A stretch of 64,000 nucleotides of DNA from Acetivibrio thermocellus ATCC 27405 (lineage in GTDB: Bacteria > Bacillota > Clostridia > Acetivibrionales > Acetivibrionaceae). Positions 7,190 to 21,213 of the stretch are shown in pieces. A program made the translations under genes and the position numbers. Position 1 is the stretch's first letter, and each line of letters opens with the position of its first letter. The stretch covers positions 310,001 to 374,000 of the forward strand of contig NC_009012.1 in NCBI RefSeq assembly GCF_000015865.1, in the 5' to 3' direction. The notes under the pieces were generated by a model, which did no database searches, was not told the DNA's origin, and was given only the letters and a program-made list of their open reading frames with translations.

Positions 7190-7318
7190 CGGCGTACAAA
7201 GAGTATTTGGTTGGAATTTTCATAATTGCAATTTTTCATTATTAATAGTATTATTAAAACTGGAATAATATATGTTTTTTTTTATATTTGTATTTGTTTT
7301 TGGGGGGAGATGTTTTTC

Positions 7319-8728
7319 ATGAGAAAGTATGGGTTAAAAAAGATTGTTTGGATGCTTGGCATTTTATGTTTTCTGGTTGTGTCTTTAAATACCTCAATTT
7401 TTGCAGCGGACGGTAAAAATGTGGTTTTAGGCGATGTCAACGGAGATTCCAAAATAAATGCAATTGACGTTTTGCTTATGAAAAAATATATACTCAAAGT
7501 TATAAATGATTTACCCTCCGACGGTGTGAAAGCAGCGGATGTAAATGCTGACGGTCAAATAAATTCGATAGATTTTACATGGCTGAAAAAATATATGTTA
7601 AAAGCTGTTGAGAAATTTCCCGGAGAAGCAAGCAATAATCCTGACGCTGTTATTCAGTTTGAATCCGGTTTTGCCCATTCGGTGCTTTTGAAAAAAGACG
7701 GGACCGTATGGGTTTTGGGAAACAACGGCAAAGGACAGTTGGGACTTCCCGAAGTATCGGCCGTAAATGAGCCTGTCATGATAAACGGTCTTTCAGGAAT
7801 AAAATCGGTGGCTGCGGGAAGGGAGCATACACTGGCATTGCAGGAAGACGGTACTTTGTGGGCGTGGGGAAACAATTACAGCCTTCAACTCATAGAGTAT
7901 ATGGAAAGGGATCCTGATACAAAAGAGAGATTTACAAGTATTCCGATTAAAGTTGAGACTCATTCCGATATCAAATATGTGGCGGCTAAATTTTCACGTA
8001 CCCTCATAGTAAAAAATGACGGTACTGTTTGGCTGTATTCGCTTCCTCCTATAAATACCTCCTCGGATGCCGAGTACATGCCGTGGGAAATAAAAGGCTT
8101 TGGGGATATAAAGATGGCGGATATTGGGACAGGACATATAGTTGCACTAAGAGAAGACGGAACGGTGTGGACCTGGGGTGAAAATGTCTGGGGACAATTG
8201 GGTAACGGTTGGCAGCAGCACCACAACATTCATACTTATATTTATTTTGAGCCCAATCAGGCAAAGAATCTCTCGGATATTGTTTCGATAGCCGCGGGAG
8301 ATGCTCATTCGGTGGCATTGAAGAGTGACGGAACTGTATGGACTTGGGGCAGCAACTTCAACGGCGAGCTTGGAAACGGTACGACTACTTATATTTTGGA
8401 GCCAAAAAAGGTTGAAGGTTTGGAGGATATAGTAGCCATTGATGCCGGAATCGGCCATACGGTGGCGTTGAAGGCTGACGGAACGGTATGGGTGTGGGGT
8501 AAAAACAGCTATGGTCAGCTGGGAAACGGCACAACCATGAGAAGCACTGTTCCGATACAGGTAGAAGGACTTGAAGGAATTGTGGCAATACAAGCAGGTA
8601 TGGAGTGCACGATAGCATATAAAAATGACGGAACGGTATGGGCATGGGGTAAAAATGATTTTGGACAATTAGGTGACGGAACTTTTGAAAACATATTAAG
8701 GCCCGTAAAAGTATTTGAAAGAAAATGA
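7319..8728 (+). CDS. Secreted RCC1-repeat protein with N-terminal type I dockerin
   Basis: 469 residues after choosing the ATG at 7319, which lies about ten bases after GGGGGGAG. A signal peptide (KK-rich start, hydrophobic core, cut after SIFA) is followed directly by a two-repeat dockerin (GDVNGDSKINAIDVLLMKKY and ADVNADGQINSIDFTWLKKY) at residues about 40-105. The rest is a series of RCC1/ATS1 propeller repeats, each with a DGTVWxWGxN core and a GQLGNGT-like end. Dockerins normally dock enzymes onto cellulosomal scaffoldin cohesins, so this should be an extracellular cellulosome component. No catalytic domain is seen; RCC1 propellers usually bind proteins or act as inhibitors. The Ser-Thr recognition pair is altered to Ala-Ile and Ser-Ile. 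Confidence 0.9.
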   Translation: MRKYGLKKIVWMLGILCFLVVSLNTSIFAADGKNVVLGDVNGDSKINAIDVLLMKKYILKVINDLPSDGVKAADVNADGQINSIDFTWLKKYMLKAVEKFPGEASNNPDAVIQFESGFAHSVLLKKDGTVWVLGNNGKGQLGLPEVSAVNEPVMINGLSGIKSVAAGREHTLALQEDGTLWAWGNNYSLQLIEYMERDPDTKERFTSIPIKVETHSDIKYVAAKFSRTLIVKNDGTVWLYSLPPINTSSDAEYMPWEIKGFGDIKMADIGTGHIVALREDGTVWTWGENVWGQLGNGWQQHHNIHTYIYFEPNQAKNLSDIVSIAAGDAHSVALKSDGTVWTWGSNFNGELGNGTTTYILEPKKVEGLEDIVAIDAGIGHTVALKADGTVWVWGKNSYGQLGNGTTMRSTVPIQVEGLEGIVAIQAGMECTIAYKNDGTVWAWGKNDFGQLGDGTFENILRPVKVFERK

Positions 8729-8751: not shown

Positions 8752-9336
8752 GTGAGTTTACAAAATAGATTTAAGAGTTTGCATTATAATTCACCGGTTA
8801 TTCTGACAATGACGCTTTTGTCGCTGGGAGCGTTGATACTTCAGAACATTACCCGTGGCTACACAACTTCGTTGCTGTTTTCAGTCTATCGCAGCAGTCC
8901 CTTCAGTATATTTTTCTATTTCAGGCTTTTTGGACACGTGCTGGGACATGCAAACTGGGAGCATTACATGAACAACTTTCTTCTTATTTTGCTTCTTGGG
9001 CCTATGCTTGAAGAAAAATACGGCTCCAAGAGAATTGCTTTTATGATAGCGGTAACGGCCGTGGTTACAGGAGTTATAAACATACTGCTTTTTCCCAGAA
9101 CAGCCCTTTTGGGAGCAAGCGGAGTTGTTTTCATGTTTATTCTGCTAAGCTCTTTTGTTAATTTTAAAAAGGGAAGAATACCCATAACCTTTATACTTGT
9201 TGTTATAATTTATCTGGGAGGAGAGGTTATGAACGGTATTTTTGTAAAAGACAATATTTCACAGCTAGCCCATTTGGTGGGAGGAATCTGCGGAAGTGTG
9301 TTTGGTTTTAAATGGGCGGAAAGGTCGTCCTGGTAG
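8752..9336 (+). CDS. Rhomboid-family intramembrane serine protease
   Basis: 194-residue polytopic membrane protein with rhomboid signatures: HANWEHYMNN in an early transmembrane helix (the H-x-x-x-N cluster), the nucleophile motif GASG with Ser123, and the catalytic His174 in QLAHLVGG. Rhomboids cut transmembrane segments within the bilayer. It starts with GTG at 8752, placed about nine bases after AGGAGG. It lies 23 bases after the dockerin-RCC1 gene in the same direction and is followed by a clear terminator, so the two may be co-transcribed. The substrate is unknown. Confidence 0.9.
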   Translation: MSLQNRFKSLHYNSPVILTMTLLSLGALILQNITRGYTTSLLFSVYRSSPFSIFFYFRLFGHVLGHANWEHYMNNFLLILLLGPMLEEKYGSKRIAFMIAVTAVVTGVINILLFPRTALLGASGVVFMFILLSSFVNFKKGRIPITFILVVIIYLGGEVMNGIFVKDNISQLAHLVGGICGSVFGFKWAERSSW

Positions 9337-9484: not shown

Positions 9485-9558
9485 TTACTCTAAAAATATC
9501 GGGATTTTTTTCCGAAATAACTAATAGAGTATGTTTATTCGTGAATGGGGGATAAAAT

Positions 9559-11682
9559 ATGAAGATAACCGGAGTCATAGTAAGAATACATAAAGACAGA
9601 GCTATTATTCGGACAGACGATAACAGATTGCTTGCCGTAAAAAGACACAATGACATGATGGTAGGCCAAATAGTAAGCTTTGACGCAAACGAAGTGCATA
9701 AAGTTGAGAGCAAAAAATACAAATATGCAGCTTCGGGCAAACGTATCGAAAAAGTTCAAAAAACCCCCAAGATAAAGAATTTTTCAAGAATAAACAATAT
9801 CAAGGAATTTTCCCGCGTTGACGACATAAAAAATTTCTCACGCGTAGCGGCAACCAAAGAGACTTCACAGGACTCACCGCAGGAGTCAAAAGTGGAGAAC
9901 TTTTCCCGTGTAGTGGACTTTTCACGGGTGATGAACTTCTCACGGGTGTCAAACAGTAAGAAAAACGAAATAAAGAATTTCTCACGTATAAGCAACATCA
10001 AAAACTTCTCCAGAATAGCATCGATTGCGGCCGCTTTTGTGCTGATATTCCTGTTTGGTCGGAATGTGATGCTGAACAATAGTTCAGACAGTGAATATGC
10101 TTATGTCAGCGTTGATGTTAATCCAAGCGTTGAGTTTACGATAAACAGTAAACATAAAGTTATCGTCACATCCGCAATAAATCAAGATGCGTCAGAAGTA
10201 TTGGATGGCCTTGAACTGAAAGAGAAAGACCTGAAGTCTGCTCTTGTGATGGTTCTTGAAAAGGCAGAATCGCTGGGCTATATTTCGGATGATAAGAACT
10301 ATGTACTTGTTTCCATGGCTCTGAATGACAAGAACAAAAAAACCAGGGATAAAAGGGAAGAAAAGATTGATGAGCTGAAAGAGACTATAGAACAGGGAAT
10401 AGAAGCGCTGGACAATGATACTATTGTCCACAGGACAGTGACTGTGGACCTTGAGGAAAGAAATAAGGCTTTGGAAAATGAACTGTCAATGGGAAGATAT
10501 TATCTGTATCTCGAAGCAAAAGAAAAAGGTATGGACATTACTATTGATGAAGTGAAATCTTCAAAGATTTCTGATTTGATAGAAAAAATAGAGGATAATA
10601 CCGAGCTGGCTCCTACGCCAACACCGGTACCACCAGAAACACCGGAGCCGACTCCGACACCTACGGCATCCGAGGCAACACCGTCAAATTCACCGGTTGA
10701 GAGCAAGTCACCGGAAGCTGTGCCCGAACTTGGCTCAAGGGAAATAGAAATCCTGGGTGAAAGCGTGGTTTTGGTAACGGCCTATGACGAGAACAGGAAG
10801 GTTGTTTCCCAGGGCAGCGGTTTTGCTGTCGGAACAGGGTTGTTTGCCACAAACTATCATCTGGTTAAAGACGGTGTGGTTGTTAAAATAACGGCGGGTG
10901 ACGGAAAAGTATATGATGTGGACGGAATTGTAAAATACGACAAAGCGAAGGATTTGGCTTTGCTGAAAACCAGAGTTGAAACTGGTGTGAACCCACTTAA
11001 GCTTGGTACAAAGAAATCTTTGACCAAAGGCAGCAGGATTGTGGCAATAGGCAAGGCAAATGGAGCTAAAAACACTGTGACGAAAGGAAGTATAAAGAGC
11101 CTTAAGGTTGACGGCCTGACCGACGCAATTGAACTTTCGGCTTCAATTTCAAAGGAAAGTACCGGCGGTCCTGTGTTTGACATGAAAGGAAATGTTGTAG
11201 GAATAACTGCTTATGGAATTTCAAAACAAAATGTCAATGCTGTGATTCCGGCAGACTATGTAGCTGACTGGGTAAAAGAGCTTTCGAAACATTCCTTTGG
11301 CAACATCAGAATTGTAAGGAAAACTCTTGTATTTGACAGTGACTTTGAGTTCAATTTTGTGGTTTACAAAATAATAAGGGCGCTGGAAAATGAAGATGCT
11401 GCCACATATTTTGGCTGCATGACCGATGAATTGTACAAGGATGAAACAAGGAAAAATCTGGAAGTACTGTTTACAACTTACGACCTTGCTTATAACATAG
11501 AAAGTATCAATGTTGTTTCAAAGAGTGAAGAACAGGCAAAAGTAAGCTATGTTTATACAATAAACAAAGAAGCCGGTCCGAACTTTAAAAATTACAGAAT
11601 AATCGGAGAATGCAGCCTCATAAAGGTTGACGGCACATGGAAAATCAATGATTCGGAGGAAAAGAAAGAGTATATACAATAG
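9559..11682 (+). CDS. Orphan RsgI-like anti-sigma factor with S1C protease-like and NTF2-like ectodomain
   Basis: 707 residues. Residues 1-60 are the RsgI anti-sigma domain (TGVIVRIHKDRAIIRTDD). Residues about 74-153 hold eight FSR[IV] repeats in a basic linker. A transmembrane helix follows (about 155-175), then the conserved RsgI extracellular segment with the Asn188-Pro189 bond known to undergo autoproteolysis in this family. After a Pro/Thr linker (about 352-385) comes an HtrA-like S1C domain with His434 and Asp465, but Thr535 where the Ser nucleophile should be (STGGPV), and a C-terminal NTF2-like domain. The architecture matches the protein called RsgI9 in the literature, named here from memory. 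No sigI gene adjoins it, unlike rsgI2 in this window. ATG 9559 follows GGGGG. Confidence 0.9.
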   Translation: MKITGVIVRIHKDRAIIRTDDNRLLAVKRHNDMMVGQIVSFDANEVHKVESKKYKYAASGKRIEKVQKTPKIKNFSRINNIKEFSRVDDIKNFSRVAATKETSQDSPQESKVENFSRVVDFSRVMNFSRVSNSKKNEIKNFSRISNIKNFSRIASIAAAFVLIFLFGRNVMLNNSSDSEYAYVSVDVNPSVEFTINSKHKVIVTSAINQDASEVLDGLELKEKDLKSALVMVLEKAESLGYISDDKNYVLVSMALNDKNKKTRDKREEKIDELKETIEQGIEALDNDTIVHRTVTVDLEERNKALENELSMGRYYLYLEAKEKGMDITIDEVKSSKISDLIEKIEDNTELAPTPTPVPPETPEPTPTPTASEATPSNSPVESKSPEAVPELGSREIEILGESVVLVTAYDENRKVVSQGSGFAVGTGLFATNYHLVKDGVVVKITAGDGKVYDVDGIVKYDKAKDLALLKTRVETGVNPLKLGTKKSLTKGSRIVAIGKANGAKNTVTKGSIKSLKVDGLTDAIELSASISKESTGGPVFDMKGNVVGITAYGISKQNVNAVIPADYVADWVKELSKHSFGNIRIVRKTLVFDSDFEFNFVVYKIIRALENEDAATYFGCMTDELYKDETRKNLEVLFTTYDLAYNIESINVVSKSEEQAKVSYVYTINKEAGPNFKNYRIIGECSLIKVDGTWKINDSEEKKEYIQ

Positions 11683-21037: not shown

Positions 21038-21186
21038 CCCTTGACCACAGCATGTGGTTTTGAATCATCTGGTATGACTGCTGCAAAGAAGAGAACTGTG
21101 TATATTAGAGTATATAGTGATTATAGCACACTAAACTGCTATAAAAAAGGGGCTTGAAAGCACAATCTTTTCTTATTACTAGTTAT

Positions 21187-21213
21187 TTCGTAAAGGGAAC
21201 ATTTTTTCGGGGG
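21187..21213 (-). promoter_or_regulatory. SigI-type promoter for sigI2-rsgI2
   Basis: Read on the minus strand: CCCCCGAAA (21213-21205), 14-base spacer, CGAA (21190-21187). This matches the C-rich -35 and CGWA-type -10 described for SigI promoters, and lies about 150 bases before the sigI2 start. Confidence 0.7.

Follow-up and report, generated by a model that had tools for sequence, protein, structure and literature searches.

An array of FSR motifs in the cytosolic linker of RsgI9, an orphan anti-sigma-I factor of Clostridium thermocellum, as a candidate docking strip

Introduction

The window analysed here is a stretch of 64,000 nucleotides from Clostridium thermocellum (Acetivibrio thermocellus) ATCC 27405 (contig NC_009012.1, positions 310,001 to 374,000). 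Its gene at 9559-11682 (plus strand) is rsgI9 (Cthe_0260), which encodes an orphan anti-sigma-I factor of 707 amino acids, the one C. thermocellum RsgI without an assigned sigma partner. The cytosolic linker of RsgI9, about 105 residues long, contains eight FSR[IV] motifs. We propose with moderate confidence that this FSR array is a multivalent docking strip, that is, a disordered run of short linear motifs that grew by duplication and was held by selection.

PMC12203970 calls RsgI9 an orphan RsgI whose SigI is still to be found, and leaves the role of its ∼100-residue disordered stretch open. In the main text of PMC12203970, "FSR" does not occur and "repeat" occurs once, for assays; selection on the linker, relatives with arrays and the orphan link are absent from the passages covered here. 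The FSR repeats are unnamed in the parts of PMC12203970, PMC4711584 and PMC7471329 covered, but they may be described elsewhere, RsgI9 being the subject also of two structural papers (PMC9177573 and PMC11222046). Cthe_0260 also appears in PMC3478167.

Eight FSR motifs in the linker of RsgI9

An earlier note, made from the letters of this DNA alone, had claimed eight FSR[IV] copies between the anti-sigma domain and the membrane helix, and exactly eight were found, spanning residues 75-153. The motifs start at residues 75, 84, 93, 115, 121, 127, 141 and 150 (nt 9781-10017), with spacings of 9, 9, 22, 6, 6, 14 and 9, and the residue before each is N, E, N, N, D, N, N and N, respectively. The array lies between the RsgI_N domain (residues 3-42) and the RsgI_M domain (residues 180-318), on the cytosolic side of the predicted membrane helix. 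Block A (9772-9846, plus strand) has three units 9 residues apart (IKNFSRI, IKEFSRV and IKNFSRV). Block B (9892-9948, plus strand) has three overlapping units 6 residues apart (VENFSRV, VVDFSRV and VMNFSRV). Block C (9970-10017, plus strand) has IKNFSRI twice, 9 residues apart, and its last unit abuts the membrane helix. IKNFSRI, which the note had described as frequent, is exact in three of the eight copies. The codon variety that it had pointed out was found as described: Ser is encoded by TCA five times and by TCC three times, and Arg by AGA, CGC, CGT and CGG twice each. RsgI2, encoded in the same window, has no array, also in agreement with that note.

When the 105-residue linker was shuffled, none of 20,000 shuffles reached eight copies and the maximum was two. 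All stop-to-stop frames of at least 200 amino acids in the window (19,345 amino acids) contained F[ST]R[IV] eight times in total, the same number as RsgI9 alone.

Seven readable array proteins, described below, gave 48 units with the consensus [IV]-[KVE]-[NGD]-F-[ST]-R-[IV]-S-[GN]; the search pattern requires F, and degenerate units such as KNLTRL (genome G006) and RGFSSI (genome G029) fall outside this set. Relative to F, residue −3 was hydrophobic in 47/48 units and residue +1 was Ser or Thr in 46/48 (31 Ser, 15 Thr). Residue +3 was hydrophobic in 48/48, but this is required by the pattern. The last unit adjoins the membrane helix in all seven proteins. The array probably grew by duplication of the cytosolic segment next to the membrane in an RsgI anti-sigma factor.

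Selection and duplication

The F-S-R codons were compared between C. thermocellum and A. straminisolvens. Of these 24 codons, 14 were identical, 10 differed synonymously and none nonsynonymously, while the other 71 linker codons were divided into 23 identical, 16 synonymous and 32 nonsynonymous (Fisher test, p = 1e-4 on changes and 1e-5 on the nonsynonymous share). At the amino acid level, F-S-R was fully identical (1.00), whereas identity was 0.55 over the other linker residues and 0.77 over the periplasmic domain; for the N-domain it was 0.43, a value that covers 21 alignable residues, the A. straminisolvens frame being cut. The corresponding values for C. thermocellum and A. mesophilus were 0.96, 0.56, 0.73 and 0.53, and the single nonsynonymous FSR change in both comparisons that involve A. 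mesophilus stems from gap placement. The array is old and selected, and its codons bear out the claim of the earlier note that selection acts on the protein.

Because all 31 Ser units in the seven proteins use TCN and none AGY, the units are judged to descend from one another by duplication. Between units of C. thermocellum, identity over the F-S-R codons was 0.73, and 0.66 was expected from codon usage, which suggests that the duplication is old in this species. The units of genome G010 are far more alike (0.86), with several copies identical or nearly identical in DNA, pointing to a recent expansion and to arrays that still grow there. The statement that the motif does not reflect a recent DNA duplication therefore holds for age in C. 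thermocellum, but the units do derive from duplication, recent in G010. When units of C. thermocellum and A. straminisolvens were compared one by one, the same-position unit was the single best match in only 4/8, tied in one and beaten in three, so some turnover of units is possible.

Array proteins in related genomes

A search with the linker only matched six of the 14 genomes of the family. The A. straminisolvens ortholog (genome G005) has eight copies in the same 3+3+2 layout as C. thermocellum (G000), and the A. mesophilus ortholog (G001) has eight in a 4+2+2 layout; the layout shifts while the count stays at eight. In G006, of another genus, F[STN]R[IV] occurs eight times in an RsgI whose ectodomain is of the same trypsin-like kind. 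The array protein of G010 has seven copies and a galactose-binding-like ectodomain, and that of G011 has six copies, its ectodomain being cut by a contig end. A protein with three copies and a CBM3 ectodomain was found outside the family, in G029. Since the arrays sit behind different sensor domains, namely trypsin-like (four proteins), galactose-binding-like (G010) and CBM3 (G029), the motif belongs to the cytosolic side. G002-G004, of the same genus as C. thermocellum, gave no match in the linker-only search. In the homologue search that the earlier note had proposed, two close relatives thus carry the array and these three members of the genus do not match.

The collected loci contained 117 distinct RsgI-like frames, of which seven had at least three copies, two had one and 108 had none. 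G009 has a single degenerate copy, IKNFAKISAIAAAF. In G012, a partial genome, the array gene known from G010 and G011 is present in broken form, with one FSRV followed by a frame break. Alignment A1 was also scanned against 84,980 species genomes, and the best 80 of 105 relatives were kept. At E 0.01, the search of the order matched 10/58 genomes: seven with readable arrays (G000, G001, G005, G006, G010, G011 and G029), G012 with its broken gene, G009 with its degenerate copy, and G031, whose match was discarded as false (an FtsX-like protein by eye). Two more weak matches, to second genes in G006 and G005, cover only the end of the helix. In a sample of the class, 4/391 genomes matched, all of them already known from the order search, and in a sample of the phylum 1/398, the genome of the window itself. 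Within the genomes searched, the arrays are confined to one order.

With the periplasmic domains, one clade of the seven array proteins alone was rejected (p-AU 1e-61). Array proteins and other orphans constrained together were not rejected (p = 0.09), so the array may have had a single origin and been lost later.

Long linkers and missing sigI neighbours

No TIGR02895 match was found within 2 kb upstream of rsgI9 on the same strand, in keeping with the description of the gene as an orphan in the earlier note; a sigI directly upstream is usual for rsgI genes but not defining. Fourteen related genomes gave 126 RsgI_N and 118 RsgI_M matches, and the 118 strongest SigI matches among those listed were used as the SigI set. 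The gap between the N and M domains was measurable in 113 proteins, with a median of 44 residues and 11 gaps over 60. A sigI within 2 kb upstream was missing for 10/11 long-linker genes vs 2/102 others (Fisher test, 1e-11, uncorrected for kinship), and one of the two short-linker orphans is the broken gene of G012. In all, 17/126 RsgI_N matches had no sigI upstream, five of which lack a measurable gap and stand outside the test. In G029, no sigI-like frame was seen by eye in 3.8 kb upstream. The link between a long linker and a missing sigI neighbour is new in this analysis.

A second group of orphan RsgIs was observed at loci L162-L165 and L166 (in G011, G013, G012, G010 and G009). Their genes lie downstream of a papain-type peptidase-like gene (by eye), and their linkers are about 30 residues above the usual length and have no FSR array.

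The array as a docking strip and ClpX as a candidate partner

The signalling path described for RsgI in PMC12203970 consists of self-cleavage, cleavage by RseP and then degradation by ClpXP, which acts on an XAA end. RsgI9 has such an engagement end, IAA at residues 156-158, almost directly after the last FSRI. The periplasmic domain of RsgI9 would cut itself, RseP is predicted to cut next in the membrane, and ClpXP would then destroy the released N-terminal fragment, starting at the X-Ala-Ala end. The array could gather a soluble cytosolic partner where signalling ends, beside the RseP/ClpXP cut site. If this partner were ClpX, the released fragment would be held at its N-domain by several weak tethers next to a single engagement site, and ClpXP would degrade it fast.

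The earlier note had suggested that a protease or the sigma factor is bound several times over, a possibility close to the docking strip. ClpX is a tentative first guess and a SigI the second. ClpX comes first because it is already the last actor of the path, its N-domain takes contacts from substrates, and lambda O, an N-domain substrate, resembles the array at its start. Recognised through its N-terminus, lambda O opens with a stretch containing I-x-N-F-G-R, like the I-K-N-F-S-R of RsgI9. The contacts of substrates with the ClpX N-domain, and the need of lambda O for it, are given in PMC3983244. FtsZ of E. coli, a two-site ClpXP substrate, resembles the proposed RsgI9 in having one ClpX site in a disordered linker and one near the C-terminus (PMC3983244), but its linker site differs in sequence from the FSR units. 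A reading of the unit as an FtsZ-type C-terminal peptide was rejected. In that peptide, Phe377 has Pro375 at its −2 position and Leu378 at +1; such a Pro and such a Leu were found in 0/48 and 0/48 units, respectively.

According to PMC12203970, ClpXP degrades seven RsgI fragments, while the RsgI2 fragment was not degraded and the RsgI9 fragment could not be purified and was insoluble in E. coli, where an SMT3 tag did not help; for RsgI2 and RsgI9 only chimeras were degraded. The RsgI9 chimera, built on RsgI6N, carries residues 150-158, FSRIASIAA, i.e. the eighth unit and the XAA end.

Several points weigh against a docking strip, or against ClpX as its partner. The chimera has one unit only, and its XAA end alone explains its degradation. 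Because seven other RsgIs are degraded without an array, the array is dispensable for the ClpXP step, and with the RsgI2 fragment not degraded in PMC12203970, that step may not extend to every RsgI. The strip may simply be sticky, since the RsgI9 fragment is insoluble. The likeness to lambda O covers a few positions and may be chance; [ILV]xxF[STGNA]R occurs 11 times in the 19,345 amino acids of window frames, and three of these matches lie in proteins other than RsgI9. A paired C. thermocellum RsgI carries a single F-S-R-like stretch, LAFYSRIAAGIAA, before its helix, and since ordinary RsgIs can do so, the last copy of RsgI9 may be plain membrane-boundary sequence. The contrast in conservation is weak between A. 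straminisolvens and A. mesophilus, which resemble each other over the entire linker, at 0.87 in the other linker vs 0.96 at F-S-R; synonymous and nonsynonymous changes were 6 and 1 in FSR, and 8 and 5 in the rest of the linker. The 11 long linkers amount to about three ortholog groups, so that the p of 1e-11 overstates the orphan link. Of the 10 long-linker orphans, five are without an array (four that belong to one group, and that of G009 with its degenerate copy), so the link is with long linkers first and with arrays second. The array protein of G006 is also paired with a sigI.

An extension of the docking strip, which we regard as improbable, is that orphan RsgIs are no longer plain anti-sigma factors, the released FSR strip being a soluble multivalent adaptor and itself the signal carrier. 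Such an adaptor would bring ClpXP, or some other partner, to sigma factors or RsgIs that belong to other pathways, and one sensor could reset several SigI circuits. For the docking strip itself, the conserved motif is a concrete handle for pull-downs and mutants. If it is true that the strip docks ClpX, signalling would run via tandem protease tethers beside an intramembrane cut site.

The sigma partner and the promoter of rsgI9

A different partner is envisaged when the array is taken to bind sigma factors, capturing SigI1 or several SigIs and adding to or replacing RsgI_N, so that the orphan would sequester foreign sigmas. This seems unlikely, though it comes closest among the alternatives. 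It draws on G006, in which a sigI lies directly upstream of rsgI9 with 54 nt between the domain matches. The product has sigma-70 region 2 by Pfam and reaches 182 bits with TIGR02895, slightly below the curated cut-off of 185. Its best matches are SigI1-type genes; the figure is 54% for the gene at 90 kb in C. thermocellum, which we take to be sigI1 from gene order. In trees it grouped with SigI1 genes (support 99/100, and 100/100 in a smaller tree). Its branch is long (1.37), and because holding the 17 SigI1 genes together without it gave p-AU 0.26, it may sit inside or just beside the SigI1 genes. A single clade (100/98) holds the periplasmic domains of RsgI9 from G006 and the three close species, and this clade joins the RsgI1s at 78/84. 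C. thermocellum has eight strong SigI genes, none of them unpaired. Since G006 keeps a SigI1-type sigI beside rsgI9 and none of the eight is unpaired, RsgI9 has probably lost a SigI1-type partner gene in the C. thermocellum line. Since the G006 neighbour is akin to SigI1, SigI1 is the obvious first candidate.

Identity between C. thermocellum and A. mesophilus RsgI9 was 0.52 in the N-domain and 0.72 in the periplasmic domain, while in the eight paired RsgIs the N-domain (0.41-0.91) was above the periplasmic value in 6/8. These values hint faintly at an N-domain freed from constraint, and faintly only because one paired RsgI (2990k) is more extreme than RsgI9, with 0.41. That pair also speaks against sigma capture by the array, as do G002-G004, which have SigI1-type genes but no matching array. 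Because G006 has both the array and a neighbouring sigI, the array did not originate as a substitute for a sigma that had been lost.

A predicted sigma-I promoter for rsgI9 is given in Table 2 of PMC4711584, and the string upstream of the window gene is that of the rsgI9 row (Clo1313_1969, Cthe_0260). Its −10 element, CGAAATAACTA, lies at 9513-9523 (plus strand). This 11-mer occurs twice in the window, before rsgI9 and at 21180-21190 (minus strand) before sigI2, with 0.05 expected by chance. The identical element before both genes suggests shared sigma-I control. The −35 part of the rsgI9 promoter is weak. In the A. mesophilus locus, the stretch judged by eye to correspond is altered and sits farther from the gene on the upstream side; the start of A. 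straminisolvens rsgI9 was not found in this comparison. A log2 change of 3.16 is given for Cthe_0260 in a xylose-using strain (PMC7471329).

Linker conformation and other readings of the array

AlphaFold2, run with a six-row alignment, gave a predicted local distance difference test (pLDDT) score below 50 for residues 52-152, about 30 over most of them, and a low-confidence helix at 150-173; the mean of the whole model was 49.5. The model indicates no folded structure in the linker, which is predicted to be intrinsically disordered. The AlphaFold analysis of PMC12203970 likewise finds this linker disordered and notes an extra stretch of ∼100 residues. Readings of the repeats as a beta-helix or alpha-helix were set aside, as neither was predicted. 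No solved structure matched the linker; two matches at E 0.15 and 0.16 were taken as chance.

The earlier note had raised membrane binding by a basic aromatic repeat. The units would then be patches on the inner membrane face that hold back the anti-sigma domain, or the fragment once released, at the membrane, as the net charge of the arrays (+5 to +11), one Phe per unit, the last unit adjoining the helix and the insolubility of the RsgI9 fragment would allow. This suggestion was weakened by the analysis. The interfacial transfer energy of the 7-residue cores was positive, i.e. unfavourable, in 46/48 (the two negative values being −0.3 and −1.5), and the spacers are near neutral or acidic (net charge −6 to +1) in 6/7 proteins. 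Four stretches tested have a hydrophobic residue at every third position, with a moment of 0.70-0.76 at 120 degrees and 0.02-0.18 at 100 degrees; taken together, these stretches and the 48 cores lack the moment near 100 degrees and the favourable interfacial energy of an amphipathic helix, which speaks against a helix lying on the membrane. Membrane binding also leaves the Ser or Thr at +1 in 46/48 units unexplained. We consider it improbable, and less likely than docking.

Each unit could instead be a modification site, with the +1 hydroxyl or the invariant Arg phosphorylated in a graded multi-site switch. Ser and Thr exchange at +1 while the Arg and the flanking hydrophobic residues stay (F being required by the pattern), and arginine phosphorylation is listed as a degron for McsB in PMC8138137. 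We consider this very unlikely. A passive spacer, or a repeat in decay, that lacks any sequence-specific function would suit the ready expansion in G010, the disorder, the divergence of most spacers and the turnover or convergence of units (same-position best match in only 4/8), but it is the least credible alternative and already largely refuted by the 0/24 nonsynonymous FSR codons vs 32/71 in the other linker and by a motif common to proteins whose periplasmic domains form no clade by themselves.

Domains of RsgI9 and neighbouring genes

The identification of rsgI9 was based on the open reading frame, Pfam domains, RsgI9 chains of the Protein Data Bank (PDB) and the published promoter string. 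The RsgI_N anti-sigma domain (9565-9684, plus strand, residues 3-42) matches PF12791 with 33.3 bits (cut-off 25); that of the A. mesophilus ortholog scored 22.5 bits with hmmscan, under the cut-off, and 27.2 in the genome search. The membrane helix starts at 10018-10068 (plus strand, residues 154-170), within the low-confidence AlphaFold2 helix. The self-cleaving periplasmic domain RsgI_M (10096-10512, plus strand, residues 180-318) matches PF23750 with 109.8 bits and has the site Asn188-Pro189, which fits the first residue of PDB chain 8u9o_B, residue 189. The trypsin-like (S1C) ectodomain (10813-11205, plus strand, residues 419-549) matches PF13365 with 82.9 bits. Among PDB chains named RsgI9, 7sjy matches the ectodomain (E 1e-201) and 8u9o the periplasmic domain (E 5e-89).

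RsgI9 has the features of an RsgI, an RsgI_N domain and a self-cleaving periplasmic domain with an Asn-Pro site, and is one of nine RsgI_N genes in the genome. Like RsgI1-8 of cellulosome clostridia, it combines RsgI_N, a membrane helix, self-cleaving RsgI_M and a sensory ectodomain. Unlike them, it has a gap of 137 amino acids between N and M domains (median 44 in 113), the FSR array and no neighbouring sigI. In the A. straminisolvens rsgI9 locus (L041), the first ∼25 codons are out of phase and RsgI_N matches in another frame, a frameshift or an assembly error.

SigI-type sigma (TIGR02895, under the curated cut-off) and RsgI_N were observed in one frame at L172 417-2036 (G008:C116), G006:C8:210959-211714, G007:C1:2373799-2374563, L161 (G013:C65:61026-61817) and in two copies in G010. 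The L172 frame continues with a hydrophobic stretch and a Pro/Thr-rich ectodomain, without RsgI_M. Such a fusion appears to combine sigma and anti-sigma in a single chain tethered to the membrane. In G007, G008 and G011, shorter fusions were seen in which RsgI_N is in frame with just the second half of SigI.

A rhomboid protease gene (8752-9336, plus strand) lies directly upstream of rsgI9, a position that is conserved in the A. mesophilus and A. straminisolvens loci. Because a terminator-like stem (by eye) follows it, the two genes are probably not one operon. The gene at 7226-8728 (plus strand) encodes RCC1 repeats and a type I dockerin; since the repeats carry this dockerin, its product is likely a cellulosome component of an unusual kind.

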